Of a stretch of 33,995 nucleotides of DNA, positions 2,202 to 21,357 are shown one piece after another (the first letter of the stretch is position 1; each line of letters starts with the position of its first letter). The translations under genes were made by a program, and so were the position numbers. The notes below the pieces were generated by a model. It saw only the letters and a program-made list of their open reading frames with translations. It did no database searches and had not been told where the DNA came from. Source of the DNA: Deltaproteobacteria bacterium (GTDB taxonomy: Bacteria > Desulfobacterota > Syntrophobacteria > Syntrophobacterales > Syntrophobacteraceae); the NCBI GenBank assembly GCA_021793275.1, contig JAJYTC010000031.1, positions 1 through 33,995 on the forward strand, in the 5' to 3' direction.

Positions 2202-3779
2202 CTAAATTCCTAGTTTATCGAGGTATTTTTGATATAGATCGTCTCCGGCGCGGCTTACCGCTGTGGGGAAAGACTTTTCCAGGGCGAGCGATATCTGGGT
2301 GGCGCTCCGGAAACGTTTGATCGGGTCGCATGCGAGGCAACGCATTACAAGCTCGTTGAGCTCTTCAGGGATCTCGGATCTCCATACCCTTGGCGGTGTC
2401 GGATACTGTTCGCAATGTTGAATTTCATATTCCTCGAAAGAAGAAGCTTTGAACGCAGGGACGCCGGTCAGCATTTCATAGAGGAGTGTCCCGAAAAGAT
2501 AGATATCGGTAAAAACGGGAGGCCTTCTGCGGGCAAGATATACCCTGAACTGCTCGGGCGCCCTGTAGGAAAGGTGGACGAGCGGGAGTTCTCTCAGAGC
2601 GACCCTGGCGGGACTGGCCTTTTCTATCTCTTTCCACAGGCCTCCGTTGTATATTTTGAGATGCGGTTTTTCTCTGCCCAGAAGGATGCGCGAAGGACGC
2701 AGGTCCAGGTGGAAAAAGTTGCGTATTTTGCCGTCTGCGGCCATATGAAGGTGGAGATCGCCCAGGGCTTCGAGCACCTGGTAGCCAAGCTTTGCGGCAA
2801 GAGGAACCGGCATGCCCGATCCTTCGCAAAGCAGCTCGCCGAGTGAAAGGGGCAGGTGTTCGCGCACTACGAAGAAGTGTCCTTCAAAATTCGCCAGATC
2901 GTAAATCCGGACCAAATGGCGGGAATCGATTAACATCTGCCTTTTTGTCCACGCTGTGAGCCTTTCGACCGGCAGGGCGTCCGTGAGCCTTCCGGTCAGC
3001 GCCTGGCCGGCGAACTTCCTGCCGTTGCTCTGCTCCTGCAGCTCCACGATAAGAGAACTGGATCCGATATGCAGGAGGTCGGTCACTTTGTACGTGTGGA
3101 CGCAGCCGGATAGAGAGTTGCCTGTTTGGTCGGTCCAGGATGTCAACGTCCGTCCGAGAGCGGAGTCGGCCAAATAGGAGTTCAAAGAGAGGACCGACGG
3201 GTTGTTTAATTCAGATTTCGCGCGCAGCTCCACGCCTGTTTTAGCAGATGCTGACGCGCCGGCATGTTCTTTCTTCTGTTCCTGGGAGCATTTCGCGATT
3301 TTTGCCAGTATGCTTTTTTTCTGCTCTTCGCTAAGGCTTTGATCTGAATAGACGTACTGGTAGTAACCGAACGCTTCCTGCCATCTTTCCAGTTTCACGG
3401 AGCAGTCACCGCATAACTCCCGGCATTTGAGCGGTTCAAATCCCAGGTCGGCAGCCAGGCTTAACTCTTTGATGGCTTCCTCCCAGAACTGCCCGTCAAT
3501 GAGCGCCAAACCGTAGTTATAGAGCTGGACCGGATCCGTTGCCTTAAGCTCATCGAAGGAAACTGCCCCCTCGTCGGATTGAGTTCCCAGGCTGTTAAGC
3601 AGTGATTCGGCGTATGAGCGTATCTCTTCTTTCGCAGCGTGAGGGAAGTCTTCCGCCTCGATTTCGCCAAGTATCGCCTTTATGATCTCGGCAGTCCCAT
3701 CCGCCAGGCCCTGCTCCATGTAGAGGCGCGCTTCGGTCAATCGAACAAAGAATTCTTTTACAAGTTGCTCGGGCGGCAT
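2202..3779 (-). CDS. TPR protein fused to a degenerate Ser/Thr protein kinase domain (predicted pseudokinase)
   Basis: 525 residues. Residues about 1-170 are helical with TPR-like units (for example LYNYGLALIDGQFWEEAIKELSLAADLG at 87-114). After a polar linker, residues about 230-505 follow the eukaryotic-like kinase fold. HLDLRPSRIL (357-366) corresponds to the catalytic loop, YRAPEQ (405-410) to the APE motif, FTDIYLFGTLLYEMLTG (423-439) to helix F, and CDPIKRF (484-490) contains the conserved late Arg. Three catalytic positions are lost: the beta-3 Lys is Gln259, the metal-binding Asn of the catalytic loop is Arg364, and the DFG Asp is Asn378 (YNGG). The glycine loop is IGSSSL. I therefore infer little or no phosphotransfer, and a scaffold or nucleotide-sensing role. 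AGAGGTGAT 6 bases before the ATG fixes the start. It is the last gene of the roadblock/MglA operon, 42 bases after the preceding gene. Confidence 0.8.
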   Translation of the reverse strand: MPPEQLVKEFFVRLTEARLYMEQGLADGTAEIIKAILGEIEAEDFPHAAKEEIRSYAESLLNSLGTQSDEGAVSFDELKATDPVQLYNYGLALIDGQFWEEAIKELSLAADLGFEPLKCRELCGDCSVKLERWQEAFGYYQYVYSDQSLSEEQKKSILAKIAKCSQEQKKEHAGASASAKTGVELRAKSELNNPSVLSLNSYLADSALGRTLTSWTDQTGNSLSGCVHTYKVTDLLHIGSSSLIVELQEQSNGRKFAGQALTGRLTDALPVERLTAWTKRQMLIDSRHLVRIYDLANFEGHFFVVREHLPLSLGELLCEGSGMPVPLAAKLGYQVLEALGDLHLHMAADGKIRNFFHLDLRPSRILLGREKPHLKIYNGGLWKEIEKASPARVALRELPLVHLSYRAPEQFRVYLARRRPPVFTDIYLFGTLLYEMLTGVPAFKASSFEEYEIQHCEQYPTPPRVWRSEIPEELNELVMRCLACDPIKRFRSATQISLALEKSFPTAVSRAGDDLYQKYLDKLGI

Positions 3780-3821
3780 TTATCACCTCTGCCGATGTCT
3801 GTGGAATCCGACATCAAGCGC

Positions 3822-5207
3822 TCAGTCCTTTTGTTGAATTGTCGCAGAGCCGGGTGGTGAGCTCCGCAAGCTGCGCAGATCGAATAACGGGACCTCGACA
3901 CGCGAGACGATTTTAAAGAAGAGGGACTCCTCAGCCGGGGACTCGTCGGCGATTTCTGCGTCTGAAATGAAACTTAGAGCATCGCAGAAAATAATCCTGT
4001 GTGTTTGGTCGTCGGCGGCCAGAACAGCTATCGGCCCGGTCGCGTCGGCGTGCCCGGCAAGATCGAACCCAAGCGGTTCGAACTTGTAAGACCTGAGTTC
4101 TTTTGGATGCAGTTCCGCCCATTGGCCCAGGACTCCGCTCTTTACTCCGCGAAAAAGAGGCTTGAAATCGGAAAGAGTCGCATATCCGCGCTTAAAAACT
4201 CTGCGGCCAATCCTGCGCGTTGAGCGCGCAGCCTTGAGCACGCAGGATGCCGGCAAGGCAAAACATTTTCCGTCCGTAACAAGCAGGCAGGCGTCCGCAT
4301 GCCGAATGCCGCGCAGCACCGGATCGCTCTTTTCGCCCGGTTCGGGAGAAGAGGCAACGGCCTGCGCAGTATCCTCTTTTTGTGCCCGAAGAGGTGTTTT
4401 GTCATCGGAGCGATCCGGGACAGTCGTCGATAGGGCCGAAAGCGAAATGTCGGGTTGAGACAGGATGCCGGTGGAAGCTGACGACGTTCCAGTCGGCGGG
4501 GCGCCGGACAAATCGGGGCTTGCGCTTCCCGCCTTTGCCGCGAGAGCCTTCTGCCGCAGGTCCTGAAACTTTTCTACCAGCTCTTTTAACCTTTGTTTCT
4601 CACTCGGTCCCGACTTTCCCTCTATGAGAAGCATGTGCGCAAGCAGTCCCTGGGAATCGCGAATGAGTTGAACGAGTTTGGTGTTTACCGCATTGGGCCT
4701 GTTGAGGAGCCGTTTGAGAATGACCTCCATAATTTTAAATACCGACTTTGCATCCGGGGAATGCGATGCCATTGGCTCAAGTCGCTGGAGGGCGTCGATA
4801 AATTTTTTCAGGTTTTCCCTGGAAAAGTCCCAGTCGAGACTAAGGTATGCGGCATTGAATTGTTCAATCAGTCCTGGCAGCCCGGTGCTCGGAGCGCCAG
4901 GTTCCGAGGAAGTCGATAATCCGGAGAAAAGGTCCGAGTGGCGGGAAGGGACAAAGAGTTTGTCTATCTCCCTGTCTATCTCGATCTGAACGGCGTCGAG
5001 ATTGAGGGGCGCTCCCGGACTCTCCGAGGGCTCGCCTTTCTGTGGATGAGGGTCTTGCCCGGCATTAGCGGCGGCAACCGGATCTCCCTCGGCCCTCCGA
5101 ATGACCGGAACGAACAGGGAGTCGATTCCCTTGTCGATTTCCAGTTCCAGGGTCTTGAGATCCTCTTTCGCCCATGTTTCTGGTTTGGGGGCTTCTTTTT
5201 GAGGCAT
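3822..5207 (-). CDS. Hypothetical signalling protein: two copies of an E-I-D-x-x-I-D-x-LFVP motif, CheW-like C-terminus
   Basis: 461 residues, no family confidently recognised. The N-terminal 100 residues carry one 15-residue motif twice, at 20-34 (LELEIDKGIDSLFVP) and 73-87 (VQIEIDREIDKLFVP), separated by Pro/Gly/Ala-rich sequence. This looks like a repeated docking peptide. Residues about 110-230 are helical; about 230-300 is a low-complexity Ser/Thr/Pro linker. The C-terminal part from about 302 (ACLLVTDGKCFALPASCVLKA) to about 440 has the beta-strand spacing of a CheW-like domain, a protein-interaction fold; this is a resemblance only. GAGG lies 8 bases before the ATG. It sits 73 bases after the MglA gene and 42 bases before the pseudokinase gene, all on one strand, so it probably works with them. 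Confidence 0.65.
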   Translation of the reverse strand: MPQKEAPKPETWAKEDLKTLELEIDKGIDSLFVPVIRRAEGDPVAAANAGQDPHPQKGEPSESPGAPLNLDAVQIEIDREIDKLFVPSRHSDLFSGLSTSSEPGAPSTGLPGLIEQFNAAYLSLDWDFSRENLKKFIDALQRLEPMASHSPDAKSVFKIMEVILKRLLNRPNAVNTKLVQLIRDSQGLLAHMLLIEGKSGPSEKQRLKELVEKFQDLRQKALAAKAGSASPDLSGAPPTGTSSASTGILSQPDISLSALSTTVPDRSDDKTPLRAQKEDTAQAVASSPEPGEKSDPVLRGIRHADACLLVTDGKCFALPASCVLKAARSTRRIGRRVFKRGYATLSDFKPLFRGVKSGVLGQWAELHPKELRSYKFEPLGFDLAGHADATGPIAVLAADDQTHRIIFCDALSFISDAEIADESPAEESLFFKIVSRVEVPLFDLRSLRSSPPGSATIQQKD

Positions 5208-5280
5208 GAACCCTTCCTCTTAAACCGGATTTTGTTACAAAAACCTGATGAATGCCTGCTTCGACAGACTCCCTGGGGTG

Positions 5281-5901
5281 TCAGCAGGTAATCTGGCCGC
5301 CGACTTTGCGTATAACGCTCTTTACGGTCCGCTTGCTTATCTCACGCAGAGTTTCGTAGACGCCGTCTCCATTGGCTGCGCTGGCTTCGAAAAAGGGGAC
5401 GTTCAACCCTTCGTTCAGATCGGATTCAAGTTCGGCTACGGGGAGAAGAGGGATGTTCGACTCCATCAGATCACGTTTGTTATATTGCAGCACAAGCGGC
5501 ACCTGCCCGACAGAGAGCCCTTCGTCGCTCAGGTTTTCAACGAGGTTTTGCAGGCTTTCGATATTCTTGTTCTTCTGGACTTTGAGCGAGTCGGCCACGA
5601 AAACAATGCCGTCAACTCCCCTGAGCACAAGTTTCCTGGTGGCGTTGTACATGACCTGCCCGGGAACGGTGTAGAGCTGGATGCGAATGGTCATGTGCAT
5701 TACCTTGCCGATATTGAGGGGCAGGAAGTCGAAAAACAGCGTTCTGTCTCCCTTCGTGTCGATGGTCACCATCTTACCGCAAACCTGTTTGGACATAGAC
5801 TCGTGTACATAGAGCAGATTCGTGGTCTTACCCCCTCGGCCCGGTCCATAATAGACTATTTTAGCCTGGATTTCGTTTTTGCTCAAATCTATGAACGCCA
5901 C
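5281..5901 (-). CDS. mglA: MglA-type Ras-like small GTPase
   Basis: 206 residues, the usual MglA length. The N-terminus (AFIDLSKNEIQAKIVYYGPG) matches the family. The P-loop is GPGRGGKTT (19-27; Lys25, Thr26), the switch II signature TVPGQ is at 78-82 with Gln82, the guanine-specificity motif NKRD is at 141-144 and the SAANGDG motif at 174-180, so GTP binding and hydrolysis should be intact. MglA GTPases set cell polarity or act as switches in motility and other processes, with a roadblock protein as GTPase activator. The start is a GTG at 5901, supported by AAGGAG 7 bases upstream. It overlaps the end of the roadblock gene by 13 bases, pointing to translational coupling. Whether this copy has anything to do with motility is unknown; no motility gene is near. 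Confidence 0.93.
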   Translation of the reverse strand: MAFIDLSKNEIQAKIVYYGPGRGGKTTNLLYVHESMSKQVCGKMVTIDTKGDRTLFFDFLPLNIGKVMHMTIRIQLYTVPGQVMYNATRKLVLRGVDGIVFVADSLKVQKNKNIESLQNLVENLSDEGLSVGQVPLVLQYNKRDLMESNIPLLPVAELESDLNEGLNVPFFEASAANGDGVYETLREISKRTVKSVIRKVGGQITC

Positions 5902-6305
5902 GGACCCGCTCCTTTGCGCTCTCCGAATACTGCCGACATTTCATTTATAGCGCTGCCAAGCTTTAGTCGGATAAGGCCCAGCGAAACATTGTCATTGAAG
6001 AGCGTTATGATGAGATAGTCCTTGGCAAGGCGGCTGAAATGCACATTCCGCCTGCCTCCCTTGTGGTACAACAGGGCGAAGTCCTCCTCTCCTATGAGCC
6101 TTGCTATCTCGGCGGTAGCCGCAAAATTTGCCGCCGAAACCGCCGCCAGCGAGAAGATGTCCTCCATTTCCAACGAACCGCGCTCCAGGATCAAATTACC
6201 TGAAAGATCAGTCAGGACGACATGTTCGGCGCCTGAATCAAGGAGCTGGTCCGATATGATCTCCTCGAGTTTCCCGATGTCATTTTTTGTAAGTATCAGA
6301 CTCAT
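5889..6305 (-). CDS. Roadblock/LC7-domain protein, MglB-like GTPase partner
   Basis: 138 residues, almost all a single roadblock/LC7 domain: a first helix (DIGKLEEIISDQLLDSGAEHVVLTDLSGNLI), a central helix with FSLAAVSAANFAATAEIARLIG, strands containing FALLYHKGGRRNVHFSRLAKDYLIITLF, and a last helix. Roadblock proteins such as MglB dimerise and stimulate the GTPase activity of MglA partners. Its gene is first in the four-gene minus-strand operon and overlaps the MglA start by 13 bases, the common arrangement for a cognate pair. GGAG lies 11 bases before the ATG. Which roadblock subfamily it belongs to (MglB itself or another) cannot be settled by reading, so no symbol is given. Confidence 0.88.
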   Translation of the reverse strand: MSLILTKNDIGKLEEIISDQLLDSGAEHVVLTDLSGNLILERGSLEMEDIFSLAAVSAANFAATAEIARLIGEEDFALLYHKGGRRNVHFSRLAKDYLIITLFNDNVSLGLIRLKLGSAINEMSAVFGERKGAGPWRS

Positions 6306-6496
6306 TGTCAGAAATTCTCCAAATGGTGGAACCGCGTGTGAAAGTATGTATGCAAGATTTGTGCAGGGGAGTCCAAATTTCGATGGCGTTCTGCAAGGGG
6401 AGTGAAGAGCTGTGTTGAATAGAGGATCAGCGGCAGAATGTGTTTGGTCCCGCGCGCCGAGATCGCCAGTGAGCTCATTCGCTGAATGGTCCGTAT

Positions 6497-6527
6497 GCTG
6501 TTTCCACTGTTAAAACAGCGTTTTTTT
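6497..6527 (+). terminator. Terminator-like hairpin with T-run, without an upstream plus-strand gene
   Basis: GCTGTTT (6497-6503) pairs perfectly with AAACAGC (6513-6519) across a 9-base loop, followed by G and TTTTTTT (6521-6527). In form this is a plus-strand intrinsic terminator, but no plus-strand gene lies upstream. It may stop antisense transcription into or out of the roadblock/MglA operon. The half-site AACAGC is the same as in the array at 6588-6651, so it may instead be part of a binding region. Confidence 0.45.
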
Positions 6528-6587
6528 ATTTTTCTTTTTTGATATCAGACTGATTTAATTGATATTTCAGGATTTAGAGGTCAAAAA

Positions 6588-6651
6588 TAACAGCGAATAA
6601 CAGCATTAAATAACAGCCAGATAACAGCGGGGTAACAGCAGTGATAAGAGC
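6588..6651. repeat. Array of five TAACAGC units with 10-13 bp spacing
   Basis: TAACAGC occurs at 6588-6594, 6598-6604, 6611-6617, 6622-6628 and 6633-6639, and a variant TAAGAGC at 6645-6651. Start-to-start distances are 10, 13, 11, 11 and 12 bases, close to one DNA turn, so the units face one side of the helix. Two more half-sites in opposite orientations lie at 6497-6503 and 6513-6519. This could be an operator array or a decayed minisatellite. Confidence 0.65.
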
Positions 6652-6674
6652 GGTGAGCAGTGATGCAGTGAACC

Positions 6675-6702
6675 GTGATGCGTGAGGAGTGATGCGTGAG
6701 GA
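6675..6702. repeat. 14-bp tandem duplication
   Basis: GTGATGCGTGAGGA occurs twice without a gap (6675-6688 and 6689-6702), preceded by shorter GTGATG/CAGTGA echoes from 6640. It looks like a simple-sequence tract formed by slippage. Confidence 0.75.
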
Positions 6703-7037
6703 GCGGGTGTCGAGCCGGGAATCCGTAACGTTGCGGAGCGATTCTTTTTTCAAAGAGCGGCGTTAGCGAGTGAGGCGGGCTATAGGCCTGTCCTTCGATT
6801 CCGCTTGAATCCACAAAGTTTGTACCACGAAGGTTTTTAGACGCGCAAAGCGGCAACGTGAAACGGAGACGAGAAGCGGCAATAGAAACGGCAACGAGAA
6901 AAGGCAAACTTCGCGAAGGCAAAAATTAAAAGCAGGCCCAAAAGCGCTGCCGGAATGACGGCACGAGGGTTCGTCGTTCTCATGAAGATTTGAACGGTCC
7001 GTATGGTAAAACACTCGTAGATTCCCGCAACTGTCAA

Positions 7038-7099: not shown

Positions 7100-7996
7100 C
7101 TACCTCGCATCGGCGAGTTGATCGTCAATAAGAAGGCTGCTGTCGAGATCGAGGAAGTTTTTTTCGTCCTCGAGGCGACGCCACTGTAGCACAAGGTGTT
7201 CTACGGGCTTGTCAATGGTTACGGTTCCTGACGGAGTGAAGGGGTAGGCGATAAAACGGCCCTTTCCCCATCCGAGTATCTTCATAAGGGCTTCTTCACC
7301 TTCGAGCCCGCTCGTGTGCGCATGGAGGACCTTGCCCGCGCCGATAAATATATCGCCCCGGTTATCTTTCGAATAAACCTCTATTCTCAGGTCGGAGCGC
7401 GAAAGGCATCCGATCTGGAGCAGGTCTGCGAGCCTGATGGCCTTGATGGCGCCCTGAAAATCCGCGCCGGAGCAGTTTTGTGCTGGGCTGAGGCCGCTGC
7501 ATCCGTCCAATATGGCTTCAGTCAGGTCCGCACCGTCAAGATTTGTCATTTTGAGATTCACATTTGTAATTCTAGCCCTTCTAAGGTTGCTTCCTTCCAG
7601 ATTGGCGCCTTCCAGGTCGGCGCCTTCGAGATCGGCCTCTTCGAGGTCGGCCTTCATCAGAGTGGTCCCTGTGAGGTTGGCTTCCTTCATGTTGGCTCCT
7701 CGAAGGACGGCCATGGACAGGTTGGCAACTCTTGCCTTCACTTTGAACAGGTTGGCTCCTTCGAGATTCGCCCCCAAAAGGTTGGCCGAATGCAGGTTCG
7801 CCATTTCCAGGTTTGCCCCTTTCAAGTTGGCGCGCTTCAAGTTTGCGCCTTCAAGGTCGGCCCCACGGAGATCGGCCTCCTCCAGCCATCCGGCATTTGA
7901 AAGATCAATGGTGGCGAGATTGACGCCCCGCAGATAGGCGGGGCCCCTGCCGGAAATAACTGCCATTAAGACCTGGTAGCGTTTAAGTTCTGACAT
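7100..7996 (-). CDS. Pentapeptide-repeat protein with C-terminal PATAN (DUF4388) domain
   Basis: 298 residues from the ATG at 7996, chosen because GGAG lies 9 bases upstream; a longer open frame to 8038 lacks a ribosome site. Residues about 20-165 are more than 25 A(N/D)LxG pentapeptides, which fold into a right-handed quadrilateral beta-helix. Residues about 185-277 (ADLLQIGCLSRSDLRIEV, DIFIGAGKVLHAHTSGLEGEEALMKILGWGKGRFIAYPF, LEDE ending) match the PATAN/DUF4388 domain, named after the N-terminus of cyanobacterial PatA and common in signalling proteins of deltaproteobacteria. There is no signal peptide, so it should be cytoplasmic. It lies on the same strand as, and upstream of, the roadblock/MglA operon but is separated by about 800 bases, so it is probably transcribed separately. 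The role is unknown; a link to the GTPase module is inference. Confidence 0.85.
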   Translation of the reverse strand: MSELKRYQVLMAVISGRGPAYLRGVNLATIDLSNAGWLEEADLRGADLEGANLKRANLKGANLEMANLHSANLLGANLEGANLFKVKARVANLSMAVLRGANMKEANLTGTTLMKADLEEADLEGADLEGANLEGSNLRRARITNVNLKMTNLDGADLTEAILDGCSGLSPAQNCSGADFQGAIKAIRLADLLQIGCLSRSDLRIEVYSKDNRGDIFIGAGKVLHAHTSGLEGEEALMKILGWGKGRFIAYPFTPSGTVTIDKPVEHLVLQWRRLEDEKNFLDLDSSLLIDDQLADAR

Positions 7997-8253
7997 TCTA
8001 AACTTCTCCCGGGGGGGTTGCTCGTGGAATCGGCGCACCGGTACATCCGGCGCTCGGGCCGGCGCATTCCGGTTCTCGGCTTTCCTTTTTATTATTCGGC
8101 TAATTATAGGAAAATGATAAGGCCAATCGTTGAATATTTTTGATTTGCTCCGTTTGCTGCAGGATCGAACCTGAAATACAAAATGGAAATTGGTTCATGG
8201 ATCGACTCGAGACGACTGGAAAGCAGCGGCACGATCATGTATGATATTCGATT

Positions 8254-12241: not shown

Positions 12242-13447
12242 ATGACTTTTTCATCTGAAGTCGAAGAGAACAAGATTCCGATACGGAAACCGCCGCGAGG
12301 CAAGCTTGGAGTTCGGGTATTTACGGCTCTGCTTGCGGGGATTTTAATCTATGCCGGAAGCAGGGTATTTTGGGGAAAACGTGCGGAGGGGCAACGTCCG
12401 CACTTCCAGATGAGCGTTCCTGTTGTGGCCGTTGTCGCCAAGAAGGGAGATATCCCCGTATATATCACAGGACTGGGGACGGTCACCGCGCTGTATACCG
12501 CAACCATACTCAGCCAGGTCGACGGTCAGGTCTTAACGGTCCCGTTTAAAGAGGGCGATGTAGTGAATAAAGGGGCGATGCTGGCGCAGATAGACCCGGC
12601 GCCCTACGAAGCGGCGCTGCTCCAGGCGCAGGGCACGTTGGAAAGAGATAAGGCCTTGCTCGCAGAGGCCCGAAGAGATCTCAAACGATACGATATCCTT
12701 GCACAGCAGAATTCAATAGCCCTCCAGCAGAGGGACGATCAGAAATACCTGGTGCAGCAGTATGAAGGGACTGTCAAGCTGGATGAGGGATTGGTCCAAG
12801 CGGCCAAAGTAAACCTGGCTTTTACGCGGATCAGCGCCCCGTTCTCGGGACGAATGGGACTGAGGTTTGTGGACCCTGGAAACATCGTTCACGCGACCGG
12901 CACCAACGCAATTGCGGTGATCACCAAGGACCAGCCCATTACGGTCATTTTCCCGGTTCCCGAAGAGGACGCGCCTGCGGTCATGAAAGCGCTCAACGCC
13001 AAGAAAAGCCTCAAGGTTGAAGCATTGGATCGCGCCCAAAATCGTGTGATCGCCACAGGCCGCCTGCTTGCCGCGGATAATCAGATCGACACCACCACGG
13101 GTACGATCAGGCTCAAAGCCATTTTCGCAAACGAAGACCATGCCCTTTTCCCCAACGCGTTCGTCAATGCCAGGGTGCTGATGAAAACATTGCGGGGCGT
13201 GACGGTAGTTCCGTCGTCGGCCGTACAGCGAAGCCCGGAAGGAACATTCGTCTATGTTGTAGAGAAGAATAATACCGTTTCGGTGCGCCGGGTTACGCTT
13301 GGTCCTGCCGAAAAGGACAGGCAGTCTATCGCCAAAGGACTTTCTCCCGGCGAAACCGTTGTGGTTGAGGGTGTTGAAAAGCTGCAAGAAGGTAGCATGG
13401 TCCGAGTTCAAGCTCCGCGCGCGAATCCATCCGGAAAGCAAAGCTGA
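12242..13447 (+). CDS. mdtA: RND efflux pump periplasmic adaptor subunit, MdtA-like
   Basis: 401 residues. An N-terminal anchor ([20 protein letters not shown], about 24-43) follows a short cytoplasmic tail. Then come the biotinyl-lipoyl half-domains ([51 protein letters not shown] and [23 protein letters not shown]), a helical hairpin between them, a beta-barrel domain and a membrane-proximal domain ending near [17 protein letters not shown]. The adaptor bridges the inner-membrane RND pump and the outer-membrane channel. AAGG precedes the ATG by 7 bases. Its TGA overlaps the ATG of the next gene by one base, so the operon is translationally coupled. The symbol follows the MdtABC arrangement (adaptor plus two unlike pumps); the exported compounds are not known. 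Confidence 0.9.
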
Positions 13448-16400
13448 TGAACCCTTCTCGCACCTTCATCCTCAGGCCTGTTGCGACCACCCTGCTGATG
13501 GTGGCCATTCTGCTGGCAGGCGCGGTGGCATATTATCAATTGCCTGTCTCCGCCCTGCCGCAGGTGGAATATCCCACCATCCAGGTATTGACATTCTTTC
13601 CAGGCGCAAGCCCCGACGTGATGGCTGCAACCGTAACGGCGCCCCTGGAGCGCCAGTTCGGTCAAATGCCCGGCCTAAAACAGATGATCTCCAACAGTTC
13701 GAACGGCAGTTCGGTGATCATACTCCAGTTCAGCCTGGATCTGAGTCTGGACGTCGCCGAGCAGGAGGTGCAGGCGGCAATCAACGCTGCGGCGACTTTC
13801 CTGCCTTCGAACCTTCCGAACCCGCCGGTCTACAGCAAGGTCAATCCTGCGGACGCTCCGATTTTGACGCTGGCGCTCACCTCGAAGACTCTCACTTTGC
13901 CCAGGGTCGAGGATTTGGCCGACACGAGACTTGCCCAGAAAATCTCGCAACTGCCCGGAGTAGGGCTGGTCAGTATAAGCGGGGGGCAGAGGCCCGCGGT
14001 CCGCATAGATGTCAACCCGGTGGCCCTGTCCGCTTACGGGCTGAGCCTGGAGGACATTCGCGAGGCTATCGACGCCGCCAATGTGAACATGGCCAAAGGG
14101 TCTTTCGACGGCCCGAGGCAGTCTTCGCTGATAGGAGCGAACGATCAACTTCTAAGCGCCGGGGAATACCGTCCTTTGGTCGTCGCATATCGCAACAACG
14201 CCCCGGTGGTGTTGTCCGACGTGGCGACGGTGAGCGACGGGGCTGAAAATGAAGACGAGGCTGCCTGGATGAACACCACCCCGGCAGTGATAGTCAATAT
14301 ACAGAGACAGCCGGGGGCCAATGTTATCCAGGTTGTAGACAGGATCAAACGGTTGCTGCCCGTGCTGAAGAGCACACTGCCGGCAGCCGTGAATGTTCGG
14401 ATTTTGACTGACCGCACCACGACGATCCGCAGCTCGGTCGAGGATGTTCAGTCCGAACTCGTGCTGGCCGTAGCGCTTGTCATTATGGTGATATTTCTAT
14501 TTTTGCGCAACCTTTCGGCCACGATCATTCCCGGCGCCGCAGTTCCGCTGTCACTGGTCGGCACATTCGGTGTCATGTACCTGCTGGGGTTCAGCCTCAA
14601 CAACCTTTCTCTCATGGCGCTCACTATATCCACGGGGTTCGTTGTCGATGACGCCATCGTCATGATCGAAAACGTCGCGCGCTACATCGAGCAGGGGGAC
14701 TCTCCCGTTGAGGCCGCGCTGAAGGGTTCGGCTCAGATCGCCTTTACGATCATGTCTCTTACCGTTTCGCTCATTGCCGTCCTCATTCCGTTGCTTTTCA
14801 TGGGCGACGTGGTGGGAAGACTGTTCCGCGAGTTCGCCGTTACCCTTGGCGTTACAATCCTGATTTCGGCGGTTGTCTCGCTGACTTTGACGCCAATGAT
14901 GTGCGCCCGCCTGCTGCGCCATACGCCCGAGGAAGAACAGGGCAAGTTATACAGGAAATCCCAGATAGCCTGGGAGAAGCTCATCAGCTTCTACGGAAGA
15001 ACTCTGCGCTGGGTGCTCGACCGGCAGACGGCCGTCCTTATCGTGGCGGCGGTGACACTGGTGGTGACTGTCTTGCTGTATATTATCGTGCCTAAAGGTT
15101 TTTTCCCGGTGCAGGATACGGGCCTTATCCTGGGCATCTCGGAAGCGCCCCAGTCGATATCTTTCCCGGCCATGGCCGAAAAGGAACAGGCCCTTGCCGG
15201 GATAATCCTCAAGGACCCTGCGGTCCAAAGCCTGTCCACATTCATCGGCATAGACGGAACAAACCTTACCATGAACTCGGGCCGGATGTTGATCAATTTG
15301 AAACCGCTAAAAGAGCGCCGCATCAGCGCCAGCGCGGTAATTCGCCGTCTTCAAAAAGAAGTGTCAAAACTCCATGGCATTACGCTGTATATGCAACCGG
15401 TGCAGGATCTAACGGTCGAAGACCAAGTGGCCCGTACGCAGTTTCAGTACACTTTGGAAGATCCTAATATCAAGGAGTTGAATAAATGGGTAGTGAAGTT
15501 TGTCGCAGCCTTGCGTAAATGTCCCGAGCTAAGCGATGTGAGCAGCAATCTTCAGGACCAGGGGCTGGAGGCGCACTTAACCATCAACCGCTCCGCCGCT
15601 TCACGCTACGGGATTACGCCCGAGTTGCTGGACAATACTCTCTACGACGCTTTTGGCCAGAGACAGATATCGACCATTTTTACCCAGTTGAATCAGTATC
15701 GTGTTATCCTCGAGGTAGAACCCGCTTTCAGACAAAGCCCCGCCGACCTTAAGGACATCTACATCCCGACGCAAACAACCTCGATTCCCACTACGGCCGC
15801 GGTAACGACCCCTGTCTCGCCTGTTCCCGATACACTGTCCCCGGTGACGCCTATCGCTTCGACAACCAAACCGGTGACATCCCCGGCCGCATCCGCCCCG
15901 GCAACGCCTTCCGCCGTTACAACGAATTCGACCACTGCCGGAGTGATCATGACCGGCCCGGAGGGACAAGTGCCTCTGAGCGCAATCACGCGCCTTGCAA
16001 TGGGCACTGGCCCTCTTGTGATCAGCCACCTGGGACAGTTCCCGGCCGCGACCGTTTCTTTCAACCTGGCGCCGGGGGCGTCGCTCGGGCAGGCCACCGA
16101 CGACATCGAGGAGATTGCGGCCAAACTGGGCATGCCGCGCAGCATTCAGACAAGCTTTCAGGGAACGGCCCAAGCATTCCGGGCGGCCCAGGTCAATGAA
16201 CCGATTCTTTTACTGGCGGCCCTGGTAACCGTCTATATCGTGCTCGGCGTTTTGTACGAAAGCTACATACACCCGATCACGATTCTTTCGACGCTGCCTT
16301 CCGCGGGCATAGGAGCACTTCTGGCGCTGCTGATCTTTCATTTGGAATTCAGCGTGATCGCGCTGATCGGCCTTATTCTGCTGATAGGTATCGTTAAGAA

Positions 16401-16743
16401 AAACGGCATCATGATCGTCGACTTCGCGCTCGAGGCTGAACGAAAAGATGGCAAGGGACCCAGGGAGGCCATTTATCAGGCTAGTCTATTGAGGTTCCGG
16501 CCTATTATGATGACCACGATGGCCGCCATCCTGGGCGCTCTCCCTTTGGCCATGGGGAGCGGCATGGGGTCCGAACTGCGCCGCCCCCTGGGCATTACCA
16601 TAGTGGGCGGCCTCATAATCAGCCAGGTCCTCACCCTCTATACGACTCCCGTCATTTACCTGTGGTTCGACCGTTTGGCCAGGGGCCTGCACAGGATTCG
16701 TTCCAAAAATCGTGATGACGACAATGGGGTAGGGCCGGCATGA
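13447..16743 (+). CDS. mdtB: RND efflux pump, MdtB-like, with a Thr/Pro/Ser-rich insertion
   Basis: 1098 residues, about 60 longer than its paralogue in the next gene. It has the duplicated RND architecture: [45 protein letters not shown] at the start, the proton-relay aspartates Asp401/Asp402 in TM4 ([14 protein letters not shown]), and Lys984 in the second half ([19 protein letters not shown]). It should form a proton-driven trimer exporting hydrophobic or anionic compounds together with its neighbours. Residues about 775-836 are a low-complexity Thr/Pro/Ser/Ala/Val segment inserted in the second periplasmic loop, just before the PLSAI strand; the partner pump has no such segment. It overlaps the adaptor gene by 1 base and the next pump gene by 4 bases (ATGA). 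Confidence 0.92.
15769..15954 (+). other. Low-complexity insertion encoded in the first RND pump gene
   Basis: Codons 775-836 encode a segment of roughly 62 residues dominated by Thr, Pro, Ser, Ala and Val (motifs such as [25 protein letters not shown]). It lies between YIPTQ and [11 protein letters not shown]. In the paralogous pump (16740-19853) the equivalent stretch is the short [15 protein letters not shown], so about 60 residues are extra. The position corresponds to the periplasmic docking part of the second large loop. Confidence 0.8.
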
Positions 16744-19700
16744 AATTTTCCGAAATTTTCATAAAGCGCCCTGTAGCAACAACGCTTCTGACAATTGGAA
16801 TGACGCTGGCCGGGGTCCTCGCTTTTCATTTCCTGCCGGTTGCGCCGCTGCCGCAGATAGATTTTCCAACAATAGCGGTCTCTGCGGCCCTTCCCGGAGC
16901 GGACCCCGAGACCATGGCCACATCGGTGGCCGCCCCTCTGGAACGGCAATTCGCCCATATTGCCGGGGTCACCGAGATGACATCTACCAGCACACTGGGC
17001 AGTACGTTTATCGTACTTCAGTTCGACCTCAACCGGAATATCGACGGCGCAGCGCGTGATGTGCAGGCAGCGATAAACGCGGCGCGCAGTTATCTGCCAT
17101 CCAATCTGCCCCGCAATCCGATTTATCGCAAAGTTAATCCGGCGGACGCGCCGATCCTCATCCTTGCTCTTACTTCCACCCTGGTGAGCAAGGCGCAGAT
17201 GTATGATACTGCCTCGACCGTCCTGGCGCAAAAACTCTCCCAGCTGAAGGGCGTAGGCCAGGTTTTTGCGGGAGGAGGCGCTTTGCCGGCTGTCCGGGTG
17301 GAATTGAATCCGGGACCGCTTAGCAAGTATGGGCTGGGCCTGAATGAGGTAGCCTCCGCAATACAACGCGAAAGCGTGTACCAGCCGGAGGGAGAGTTCC
17401 AAAACGGGTGGGAAACCGTGGAAATCCATGCAAACGACCAACTGCATACAGCCGCCCAATACCGCCGGATCATTGTAAAATATCAAAACGGAGCGCCGGT
17501 GCGCCTTGGCGATCTCGGGACCGTGGACAATTCCGTCCAGGACCTTCGAACGGCAGGCGGGGTAAACGGCAAGCCGGCCATAATGCTGATTATATTCCGC
17601 TCGCCGGGCGCAAATATTATCAATACGGTTGAGCGGATCCGCGCAATACTGCCGGAATTATCCGCCCTGCTGCCCGGAGGGGTCCATCTATCGGTGGTTC
17701 TGGATCGCAGCCCGCCAATCCGCGGCTCTTTGGAGCATGTCGAGCATACCCTCATCATTTCGGGCATACTGGTCGTTCTGGTCGTTTTTGCCTTTCTGCG
17801 GAACCTGCGGGGTACGTTCATTCCGGCCGTCGCCGTCCCGGTATCGCTCATAAGCACCTTCGGGGTCATGTATCTATTGGGCTACAGCCTCGACAACCTC
17901 TCTCTCATGGCGCTCACCATCGCCACCGGCTTTGTGGTGGACGACGCAATAGTTGTGCTCGAAAACATCACCCGGTATTTGGAAGAAGGGCAGTCTCCGA
18001 TGCAGGCGGCGCTGGGGGGCGCACGCGAGATTGCTTTTACGGTGTTGTCGATGAGCGTCTCGCTGGTGGCGGTATTCATTCCGATCCTCATGATGGGCGG
18101 AATGGTGGGACGGCTGTTTAGAGAATTCGCGGTAACCCTTTCCGTGGCGATTACCATCTCCCTTGCGGTCTCACTTACAACAACGCCGATGATGTGCGCG
18201 GCGCTCCTGAAAAAAGAAAAACCCGGGGCTCACGGCTTGCTTTACAGGGCTACGGAGTGGGTGTATGAGCATTTGCGAAACCTCTACGAGGTAAGTCTTC
18301 GCTGGGCGCTTCGGCATTCACTCATCATGCTCTCCCTTACGGTGCTGACCCTCGGTGTCAACATTGTGTTGTTTGTCTATATCCCCAAAGGATTTTTCCC
18401 CAATGAGGACACCGGACGTATCATGGGCCGGATGCAGGCGGCGCAGGACATTTCTTTTCAGGCTATGAGCAGGAAGCTGACTCATGCAATGAACATCATC
18501 AGGAAAGACCCCGACGTCGCCTATGTGATGGGTTTTACCGGCGGGGGAGGGTATGGCGCCAGCACGACAAATTCCGCTCGAATGTTCATCTCGCTGAAAC
18601 CTTTTTCAGAGCGGAAGGCGACGGCGATGCAGATTATCGGACGGCTGCGCAAGAAGCTTGCCAGGGTGGCCGGCGCGCCGACCTATCTTCAAGCGGTCCA
18701 GGACCTGCAAGTGGGCGGCCATATGAGCAATGCCGAATATCAATACACCTTGCGGGACGAAAACCTGTCCGAGTTGGATAAATGGGCGCCCCGCGTACTG
18801 GCTATGGCTCGTAAATTGCCGGAATTGAGGGACGTGAGCAGCGATCAGCAGGACATGGGGAGGCAGACATTCGTTCAAATCGATCATGCGACCGCTTCTC
18901 GTCTCGGCATTTCCACCCGGCTTATAGACAACACTCTCTACGGCGCTTTCGGCCAGTCCGAGGTCGGCATCAACTACACCCCGCTCAACCAGTATTACGT
19001 GGTGATGGAGTTGGCGCCGCCCTTCCTGCAGCGGCCTGCGACCCTTAGCAACGTTTATATTCGCTCTTCGACCGGGGCCGAGGCGCCGCTCAGCGCGATC
19101 GCCCACTATGTACAGCGGGCCACGCCTCTTGAGGTCAATCACGCAGGTCAGTTCCCGGCCGTTACGATTTCCTTCAACCTCGCTCCCGGCGTGGCCCTCG
19201 GAGATGCAGTGGACGCCATTGAGGCGGCAACCGAACATATGAGAATGCCGGATACCGTTCATGGAAGTTTTCTGGGCACAGCCCAGGCGTTCCAGGCCTC
19301 TCTTGCCAATGAACCATTCCTGATCCTCGCGGCGCTGATTTCGGTATACATAGTGCTTGGAATCCTCTACGAAAGCTACGTCCATCCGGTTACAATCCTC
19401 TCCACACTCCCGTCCGCAGGCGTAGGAGCTCTTGTCGCCCTGCTGATCTGCCGAATGGACCTCAGCCTGATAGCGGTGGTTGGGATTATCCTTCTGATCG
19501 GTCTGGTCAAGAAAAACGGCATAATGATAGTCGACTTCGCCCTGGAAGCCGAGCGAAGGGAAGGCAAGAGCCCCGCGGAGGCCATTTATGAGGCTTCTTT
19601 GCTCAGGTTCCGACCGATCATGATGACTACTATGGCGGCTCTGCTCGGGGCACTGCCACTGGCGCTCGGCACGGGTGTCGGCCACGAGTTGCGCCGGCCG

Positions 19701-19853
19701 CTCGGGATATCGATCGTCGGCGGTTTGATTTTTAGCCAGATGTTGACCTTGTTCACCACTCCCGTGATCTACCTCTACATGGACCGTATGCGATTTTGGC
19801 TCCTGCGCATGCGGGGCAAAGGTTGCGAACATGGAAACTTGGAAAGAATTTAG
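16740..19853 (+). CDS. mdtC: RND efflux pump, MdtC-like
   Basis: 1037 residues, the usual RND length. It starts [45 protein letters not shown] and is clearly paralogous to the preceding pump along its whole length. Asp401/Asp402 ([14 protein letters not shown]) and the [23 protein letters not shown] block of the proton relay are present, so it should be active. MdtB and MdtC are known to form a mixed trimer with two unlike subunits; two adjacent, coupled, unlike pumps here fit that. The start codon overlaps the previous stop (ATGA). The following outer-membrane factor gene begins at or inside its 3' end. Confidence 0.93.
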
Positions 19854-19896
19854 GGCCGCGCCTTTGGCGGGATGGATCAAACCAGGGATAACAAGT

Positions 19897-21357
19897 ATGG
19901 CGCCGGCAAAACTGATCAGGCTCGCAACCATCCCGTTCATGCTCGTGGCTCTTGCCGGATGCCTGGTAGGCCCCAACTATGTCAGGCCGAAAACTGAGAT
20001 TCCGCCATCCTACAAGGAACTGAAGGGCTGGAAGCAGGCGCAGCCGCAGGCCTCCATTCCTCGGGGCCAATGGTGGAAAATCTTTGGCGATCCTGAGCTC
20101 AACTCGCTCGAGGCGCAGGTCAGCATCACGAACCAGAACCTTGCCGCGGCCGAAGCCCAGTTCAGAGAGGCCCTTGCAGCGGTTCAGGTCGCTCGCGCCG
20201 GCTATTTCCCGGTGGTGACGGCCGGAATCTCCACCAGCCAGACGCGAATAGGGACGGGTTTTTCCAGCAGCGGCTCCGCCGTAAGCGGTGCGCCGGTGTC
20301 TTCGAGCTCTACAACGTCCGAACTGCGGCTTTCGGGCGACGTTTCCTGGGAACTCGATCTATGGGGCGAGATCCGCAGGACGGTCGAGGCAAGCAGGGCA
20401 AGCGCCCAGGCCAGCGCCGCCGACCTGGAAGGAGTCCTCCTGGCGGCAACCGGTCAACTTGCAGAGGATTACTTTCAGCTTCGCGCCCTGGATTCCGAGC
20501 AACAGATCCTGCATACAACCGTGGCCGCCTACGGGGAGTTTCTCAGACTTACCAAAAACAGGTATGCAACAGGCGTGGCGTCCCAGGCCGATGTGCTTCA
20601 AGCCCAAACGCAACTAAAGACCGCCGAGGCCCAGGAAATCAACATAGGCGTGCAACGCGCCCAACTTGAACACGCAATAGCGTTGCTAATGGGCAAGGCC
20701 CCTTCGGATGTGAGTATTCCTCCCTCACCGCTCAACCTGGCGCCGCCGCCCGTGCCCGCAGGCATACCCTCTGAGCTTCTCGAACGCCGGCCCGATATTG
20801 CAGCCGCCGAACGCGCGGTGTCCGCTGCGAATGCCGAGATAGGGGTAGCTATAGCAGCGTTCTATCCAACGGTTACCCTCAACGCATCGGGCGGATTTGA
20901 GGCTACCAATGTTGCTCAATGGCTGGCATGGCCGTCTCGGTTCTGGTCGCTCGGCCCGGGCATCCTTGGGCAGCCCATATTCGAAGGAGGACTGTTAAGA
21001 GCCGAGAGTGAAGAGGTCAGGGCCGCTTATGACGCCGCCGTGGCAAACTACCGTCAGACCGTGCTCACTGCTTTTCAGCAGGTTGAGAATGAACTGGCCG
21101 CGCTTCGCATACTGGAGCGGGAGGCGCTTGTCCAGGACGAGGCGGTAGAGGCGGCGAAGAAATCCGTTGTCGTGGAAACCAACCAGTACAAGGCCGGGGT
21201 GGTAAGCGCCCTGGATGTAATCACCACTCAAACCATAGCCCTTAGCGACGAACTGACGGCAGCCAACATCCTTGGCCAACGCATGGTCGCCGATGCGCTT
21301 CTCATCCAATATCTGGGAGGCGGCTGGCAAGCCGGCAGCCTGCCCTTGTGCGAGTAG
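19897..21357 (+). CDS. RND outer-membrane efflux lipoprotein, NodT/OprM family
   Basis: About 486 residues from the ATG at 19897. I chose this start because it gives a classic lipoprotein signal ([22 protein letters not shown], lipobox LAGC) and has AGGG 9 bases upstream. An in-frame ATG at 19831, overlapping the pump gene by 23 bases, would add 22 residues with AAGG 8 bases upstream and is the alternative. The start of the mature protein, [18 protein letters not shown], is typical of the NodT subfamily. Two repeats of the outer-membrane efflux domain follow, with [55 protein letters not shown] and a YLGGGW ending. It forms the trimeric outer-membrane duct of the pump. Its last three residues (LCE) come right at the junction with a truncated sir2 fragment, so the extreme C-terminus may not be original. 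Confidence 0.9.

Follow-up and report, generated by a model that had tools for sequence, protein, structure and literature searches.

A conserved four-gene MglA-roadblock cassette of Desulfobacterota whose distant relatives suggest a link to type IV filament machines

What process is controlled when an MglA-type small GTPase and its roadblock partner are encoded in one run with two large proteins that resemble signalling adaptors? The question is raised by a four-gene cassette in a deltaproteobacterium of the family Syntrophobacteraceae (GenBank assembly GCA_021793275.1, contig JAJYTC010000031.1), whose 4.65 Mb genome is assembled in 278 contigs; the window, meaning the whole stretch of DNA analysed, is the entire contig C58 of 33,995 nucleotides. 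The cassette encodes a roadblock protein, an MglA-type GTPase, a 461-residue putative scaffold and a tetratricopeptide repeat (TPR) protein ending in a pseudokinase domain. Ties of its distant relatives to pilus and chemosensing genes suggest that the operon steers a pilus-like machine. The reading favoured here, at little better than even confidence, is that the cassette constitutes a switch module of Group 1 MglA and roadblock regulating a type IV filament machine (a type IV pilus or a type II secretion relative), probably at its assembly ATPase. It is based on the co-inheritance of the genes, predicted folds, lost catalytic residues, a TPR relationship, and filament, pseudopilin and chemosensory linkages in relatives; from these we infer every interaction proposed below and a filament output in the window genome. 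The cassette and its parts are as follows.

5889..6305, minus strand: roadblock/LC7 (MglB-like) protein of 138 residues with Pfam domain Robl_LC7; probable GTPase-activating partner
5281..5901, minus strand: MglA-type small GTPase of 206 residues with a GTG start; GPGRGGKTT, R53, TVPGQ with Q82, and NKRD
3822..5207, minus strand: 461-residue scaffold with motif repeats, a CheA-P1-like helical domain and a CheW/P5-like domain
5112..5138, minus strand: first short motif of the scaffold, IDKGIDSLF, residues 24-32
4953..4979, minus strand: second short motif of the scaffold, IDREIDKLF, residues 77-85
4533..4886, minus strand: helical domain of the scaffold, residues 108-225; probable CheA P1/Hpt-like fold, no conserved histidine
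3864..4310, minus strand: CheW/CheA-P5-like domain of the scaffold, residues 300-448, from Foldseek and structural alignment
2202..3779, minus strand: TPR-pseudokinase of 525 residues, Pfam Pkinase E 1.9e-17
3270..3743, minus strand: TPR domain of the fourth protein, about residues 13-170, related to the N-terminal domain of TPR-PilB/GspE-type proteins
2271..3098, minus strand: pseudokinase domain, about residues 228-503

Conservation of the four-gene cassette

The roadblock and GTPase genes overlap by 13 bases and are followed by gaps of 73 and 42 bases, all on the minus strand, exactly as a first-pass annotation of this stretch, made from its letters alone, had placed them. The 461-residue protein was present in 38 of 77 genomes, including the window's own, where it is the single match, and its named relatives are labelled Syntrophobacteraceae, Syntrophobacterales, other Deltaproteobacteria, Desulfobacterota and similar. 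Forty stretches were fetched, and the cassette was tallied over 36 loci (L031-L066; L numbers denote loci, G numbers genomes and f numbers families), with L067-L070 omitted as second sites or sites lacking a cassette. The order roadblock, mglA, 461-residue gene, TPR-pseudokinase was complete on one strand in 30 of the 36; the 461-residue gene is cut by a contig end in L032, L034, L035, L048 and L061 and contains a run of 100 N in L053. Among the complete loci, the end of the stretch cuts the pseudokinase gene in L047, L057 and L058 and the roadblock gene in L033. The annotation had named absence or unlinking of the two large genes in relatives as grounds for abandoning the grouping; they proved to be linked to mglA and the roadblock gene in every uncut locus of the 36.

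Within the relatives of families f1-f3 (n=38), mglA, the 461-residue gene and the TPR-pseudokinase gene were all present in 24 and all absent in 14, with no mixed case. Presence was called at 1e-15 for mglA, at 1e-3 for the 461-residue gene and, for the pseudokinase, at values better than 1e-30; kinase matches in the 14 cassette-less relatives reached 3.9e-16 at best. Exceptions among the class relatives comprise a roadblock, mglA and helical-domain protein without a kinase gene (G042), mglA alone (G039), a genome without the 461-residue gene that keeps only a cut mglA (G053), and one in which mglA is missing at an assembly gap (G044). The flanks vary by family, with a DUF4388 gene upstream in f1 (14 loci), gspG in f3, and PheT with a MerR regulator in the f5 locus L057. 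Because these surroundings differ between families while the four genes stay together, the unit has been held together as its context changed. The four genes are a conserved, co-inherited unit.

Composition of the four proteins

The roadblock protein matched Pfam Robl_LC7 at 29.8 bits against a cut-off of 23 (E 5e-7), in agreement with its first description as a single-domain roadblock protein, and matched the NCBIfam MglB equivalog model at E 3.2e-11, below that model's cut-off. Its gene adjoins mglA in all 30 complete loci, which together with the Robl_LC7 domain places it in the MglB/roadblock group and makes it, as judged from sequence, the probable GTPase-activating partner of MglA.

The NKxD motif is part of the Group 1 MglA definition. 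The window GTPase carries this motif together with a P-loop, an arginine finger beside the G2 threonine and TVPGQ in G3, and G24-K25-T26, R53, T78-Q82 and N141-D144 were invariant in all 20 aligned MglA rows. Pfam Ras and Arf both matched over cut-off, and the closest solved structure in the PDB was Myxococcus xanthus MglA (E 2.5e-56); the GTPase is the sole match in its own genome at E <= 1e-15. The intrinsic arginine and TVPGQ are listed as Group 1 traits in a 2014 survey of MglA proteins (PMC4316618). A second roadblock-mglA pair was seen in G046 (L069, 6853-8610), apart from the main cassette and accompanied by a short helical-domain protein lacking the motif described below.

The 461-residue protein had no Pfam family over cut-off, and a DUF6610 match fell below cut-off and was not used. 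The motif repeat reported at first pass (residues 24-32 and 77-85) belongs to a short helix motif, EIDxxIDxLF, which occurs near the N-terminus in two copies in the window and up to four in relatives. It stood ahead of the helical domain in 53 of 60 mglA-linked homologues, counted as linked when mglA lies no more than 4,000 bases away on the same strand; shuffles of these stretches averaged 0.095 and never exceeded 2 of 60. Many rows are close relatives, and such motif counts are not independent. The seven linked homologues without a match include four with degenerate look-alikes by eye (L049, L139, L144 and L147) and three in which no look-alike was visible (L069, L158 and L159). Ten homologues counted as unlinked: three at contig ends (L034 and L035 with a match, L032 without), three in which mglA lies more than 4 kb away and the pattern missed a variant motif (L132, L137 and L141), and four with neither mglA in the stretch nor the motif (L067, L068, L070 and L146).

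An AlphaFold2 model of the window scaffold contained two confident parts, at about residues 108-225 and 297-421, the helical domain having a predicted local distance difference test (pLDDT) score of 89-97 in ten-residue blocks from 111 to 220. The best Foldseek matches to the model were CheA and CheW chains (6s1k_A, E 5.5e-4, for the CheW/P5-like domain), with CheA P1 chains among the helical matches. A second aligner placed CheA P1 (1i5n_D) on residues 103-224 with 118 residues aligned at a root mean square deviation (rmsd) of 3.4 and Z 13.3, a value close to the limit that helical bundles can attain through shape alone, and CheA P5 (1b3q_A) on residues 300-448 with Z 10.8, 118-119 residues aligned and rmsd 2.6. 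The order of the two domains, P1 then P5, adds weight to the P1 assignment, and the helical domain has a probable CheA P1/Hpt-like fold in the model. The first-pass description of a CheW-like protein thus held for the predicted fold and failed for Pfam: CheW (PF01584) matched one of 25 aligned members at E 0.025 and the window protein not at all. Neither the window scaffold nor the 25 aligned members matched an HATPase or kinase core, and histidine reached at most 11 of 35 at any helical-domain position. On the modelled folds, the scaffold is like a CheA without its kinase core.

In the fourth protein of the window, the kinase lysine is replaced by Q, the DFG aspartate by N and the asparagine of HRDxxxxN by R. 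The lysine, HRD aspartate and DFG aspartate occurred together in none of 35 readable homologues (L047 and L058, cut before the region, were dropped), in keeping with the first-pass call of a pseudokinase, and the HRDxxxxN asparagine was replaced by R or K in all 35. The triad reads Q/D/N in f1 (H/D/N once) and likewise Q/D/N in both f6 sequences, and K/A/D or K/G/D in the nine readable f5 members; in the five f3 members the HRD aspartate is the one residue of the three that is kept. This absence of a full triad, with losses that vary, indicates that the kinase fold is retained and that catalysis has been broken in different ways across the families, as far as residues can tell. Both large proteins are built of protein-binding or catalytically dead signalling folds, consistent with the scaffold-like role first proposed for them.

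Filament and chemosensory links in relatives

Among 395 Desulfobacterota genomes, a profile of the 461-residue family matched 90 (one of them the window's own), many in the helical part only, and 20 distant stretches were fetched from these. The helical-domain protein adjoins a roadblock-mglA pair on the same strand in 16 of the 20 (in L145 the roadblock gene lies between, and in L136 mglA is cut). L132, L137 and L141 have a distinct CheW-like protein after mglA, with the helical one encoded some kilobases further along, and L146 lacks a nearby mglA. In L093, L096, L132 and L135, of which L096 belongs to a Desulfurivibrio lineage, the helical-domain protein is followed by a gene encoding a TPR domain fused to MshEN and T2SSE; a TPR-T2SSE ATPase gene also occurs in L147, about 4.4 kb downstream of the scaffold gene. 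T2SSE matches on these five TPR-ATPases ranged from E 6e-117 to 4e-122, with NCBIfam PilB as the best model, below its cut-off, and GspE as the second; five more were recognised by similarity (L092, cut by a contig end, L094, L095, L137 and L141). Alignments of the TPR domains of pseudokinases and TPR-ATPases matched each other in hhalign with probability 99.6 and E 5.8e-25 over 162 columns, and the TPR-ATPase profile matched f5 and f6 pseudokinases at 4e-45 to 4e-29 and the window pseudokinase alone at 1.2e-16. A TPR protein after the scaffold in L161, beside a cassette, also matched that profile (1.1e-28).

Further links occur in other lineages. Downstream of the cassette in L138 come genes for a PAS-HisKA kinase, a sigma-54 regulator, PilM, PilO, PilP and an AMIN-domain protein, and PilM occupies the same downstream place in L142. 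In f3, gspG lies directly upstream of the roadblock gene in all five loci (T2SSG E about 1e-42). Downstream in L055 (f3) are genes for a substrate-binding protein, a receiver-domain protein, CheW, a methyl-accepting chemotaxis protein (MCP) and, truncated where the stretch ends, an Hpt protein, with CheW and the MCP in the same places in L056. The first-pass placement of the device outside type IV pilus loci accordingly stands for the window contig, where none of the tested proteins was recognised as a pilus protein, and does not extend across the phylum, given the PilB/GspE-type TPR-ATPases in the fourth slot, pilM in two loci and gspG in f3.

Two arrangements may be recorded alongside. In family f43 (L132, L137 and L141) the run comprises roadblock, mglA, a CheW-like-only protein, DUF4388-type matches, and then a full scaffold and the TPR-ATPase, an apparent duplication and splitting of the scaffold. 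In the cassette-bearing genome G044, L153 (1-7222) encodes a T2SSE ATPase with a C-terminal receiver domain; the same strand also carries an MCP gene, a pair of CheW genes and, truncated at the end of the stretch, a CheA-like gene. This is another chemosensory link to a filament ATPase.

In the favoured reading, the roadblock protein would reset MglA to its GDP state, and the N-terminal EIDxxIDxLF helices of the scaffold would capture MglA or the MglA-roadblock pair. The CheA-P1-like and CheW-like domains may seat the scaffold beside chemosensory or PATAN input proteins, with no phosphate carried. The TPR protein would be the effector that reads the GTP state of MglA, as SgmX does in Myxococcus; in the window lineage this effector would end in a dead kinase fold serving as a binding or allosteric module, and in other lineages the related TPR domain is fused to an ATPase. 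The analogy with SgmX is the ground on which the TPR protein is taken as the likely effector, the scaffold as the link from switch to input and the filament machine as the probable output.

Several observations weigh against this reading. The window cassette is not near pilus genes: PilB, PilT, PilM and CheW matches in its genome are on other contigs, including an over-cut-off PilB match on a 565-residue open frame. Most of the 20 distant stretches have no TPR-ATPase next to the scaffold, and chemosensory genes occur in only two of the five f3 loci. The TPR tie is unspecific, as stand-alone TPR proteins in L143 (3.3e-22) and L142 (5.9e-21) outscore the window protein and many f1 and f3 pseudokinases (down to 7e-7); both themselves adjoin a cassette. 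The P1 score is borderline, as noted above, and MglA joined by read-through to the N-terminal half of the L079 scaffold showed no clear docking when modelled; pLDDT in its motif blocks was 52/44 and 71/60, and 53-58 in the window scaffold modelled by itself, a comparison between different sequences. Pilus genes are common with or without the cassette (over cut-off, PilB in 65, PilT in 72 and PilM in 75 of 77 genomes), so their co-occurrence lends no support; it was set aside for want of discrimination, as was that of CheW (69 of 77 over cut-off, own genome included). With the threshold set at E <= 0.001, PilB and PilT models hit 77 of 77 genomes, yet also 13 of 14 control genomes, an uninformative count. 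The idea that the TPR-ATPase is the sole PilB-like ATPase was rejected, since nine of nine tested genomes that carry it have others; longer PilB-like frames in G059, G068, G057, G056, G062, G044 and G018 (loci L148-L154) did not match the TPR extension, the G044 frame being the T2SSE-receiver fusion noted above.

A more particular mechanism, put forward tentatively and thought doubtful, is that of a kinase-less CheA acting as a receptor-to-GTPase adaptor. The CheW-like domain would sit in or beside a chemoreceptor array, the EIDxxIDxLF helices would hold MglA, and the state of the receptor would pass by contact and not by phosphate, with the TPR output switching between pseudokinase and assembly ATPase along the phylum.

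The first-pass interpretation, a self-contained signalling device that has an output of its own and no tie to type IV filaments, is considered unlikely. The distant pilus links would then reflect reuse of common domains, an interpretation favoured by the window contig without a pilus gene among its tested proteins, by the PheT and MerR run upstream in L057, by the presence of pilus genes regardless of the cassette and by the unspecific TPR tie; the flanks of f1 relatives were, moreover, profile-tested only with the window's six query proteins. It is opposed by separate filament-gene links in three kinds of lineage and by the related TPR domain on an ATPase.

Improbable to us is also a role confined to cell polarity or type II secretion, not involving pili. 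The constant gspG neighbour in f3 and the rank of GspE as second-best model on the ATPases would agree with it, whereas the rank of PilB as best model for the five tested ATPases and the pilM genes downstream in L138 and L142 do not.

That the fourth protein is an active atypical kinase phosphorylating MglA or the scaffold is very improbable: its fold is conserved, f5 members retain the lysine and DFG aspartate and the window's type retains the HRD aspartate, yet no homologue holds the full set and the HRDxxxxN asparagine is lost from every one. Hitchhiking, in which the genes would be neighbours by descent only with no joint function, draws on the many loci from related genomes and can scarcely be credited against four genes that stay together while flanks change between f1, f3 and f5 and that share presence or absence in f1-f3.

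Upstream of the cassette lies one further gene that recurs in the window's family.

7100..8038, minus strand: pentapeptide-repeat and DUF4388 (PATAN) protein, from Pfam; probable upstream partner in the window's family f1

Fourteen of the 30 complete loci, every one of them belonging to f1, have a same-strand homologue of this protein. Between it and the roadblock gene, at 6483-7005, is a dispersed repeat that looks like an inserted mobile or miniature element, bounded by an imperfect 15-base direct repeat at 6483-6497 and 6991-7005. A 661-base repeat query had at least 41 matching places in the genome, itself included (40 of 59 candidates scored), and several other copies were of 355-482 bases with 70-83% identity. 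Elsewhere in the window, 12242-21357 is an ordinary gene run comprising two adjacent RND pump genes together with those of a membrane-fusion protein and an outer-membrane efflux protein.

Comparison with known systems

The four-gene composition, for which the first pass had named no described counterpart, was not found described by title or abstract start among open-licence papers, which is weak negative evidence. A paper retrieved on MglA (PMC11378808) deals with E. coli MglA, another protein, and was discarded. In a Syntrophobacter fumaroxidans transcriptome study, an MglA is listed among pilus genes raised in early aggregation (PMC10787695); its locus tags were not tied to the cassette, and it is not used as evidence. 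As the 2014 survey found that Group 1 MglA neighbourhoods vary widely (PMC4316618), a conserved neighbourhood of a Group 1 MglA is unexpected.

The nearest functional parallel is M. xanthus MglA/MglB with SgmX, which shares with the cassette the Group 1 MglA motifs, a roadblock partner and a TPR protein, and in some relatives of the cassette a PilB/GspE-type ATPase is tied to the module. In Myxococcus, MglA-GTP binds SgmX, which is needed for polar PilB (PMC7519303, PMC11580455), direct SgmX-PilB contact was not detected (PMC11580455), and SgmX is a TPR protein of 1,060 residues (PMC7519303). Unlike the SgmX system, the window cassette has a TPR protein that carries a pseudokinase, clustered genes and a CheA-like scaffold.

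The actinobacterial conservons (CvnA-D) share a four-gene cluster with a roadblock protein and an MglA-family GTPase, and the mfp conservon of mycobacteria includes the pentapeptide protein MfpA, as a pentapeptide protein also lies upstream of the window cassette. They differ in having the histidine kinase-like CvnA and CvnC, whereas the window GTPase has Group 1 features and no CvnA- or CvnC-type family in Pfam or NCBIfam matched the four window genes. PATAN genes near some mglB/mglA are already known from the survey (PMC4316618), a likeness that extends to the DUF4388 gene upstream in f1 and to REC-DUF4388 genes in distant loci; unlike those known proteins, the window DUF4388 is joined to pentapeptide repeats.

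With CheA (P1, P5) and CheW the scaffold shares the predicted folds of two domains and their order, and it is unlike CheA in having no kinase core, no conserved histidine and the added EIDxxIDxLF motifs. MglA/roadblock control is already known; what appears to be new is the scaffold family and an exchangeable TPR output. Where one gene of the cluster fuses a TPR domain with a PilB/GspE-type ATPase, the step from MglA and a TPR effector to PilB becomes directly testable and, if the proposal is true, the histidine-free scaffold of P1-like and P5-like domains would be a new way of tying chemosensing to a small GTPase.

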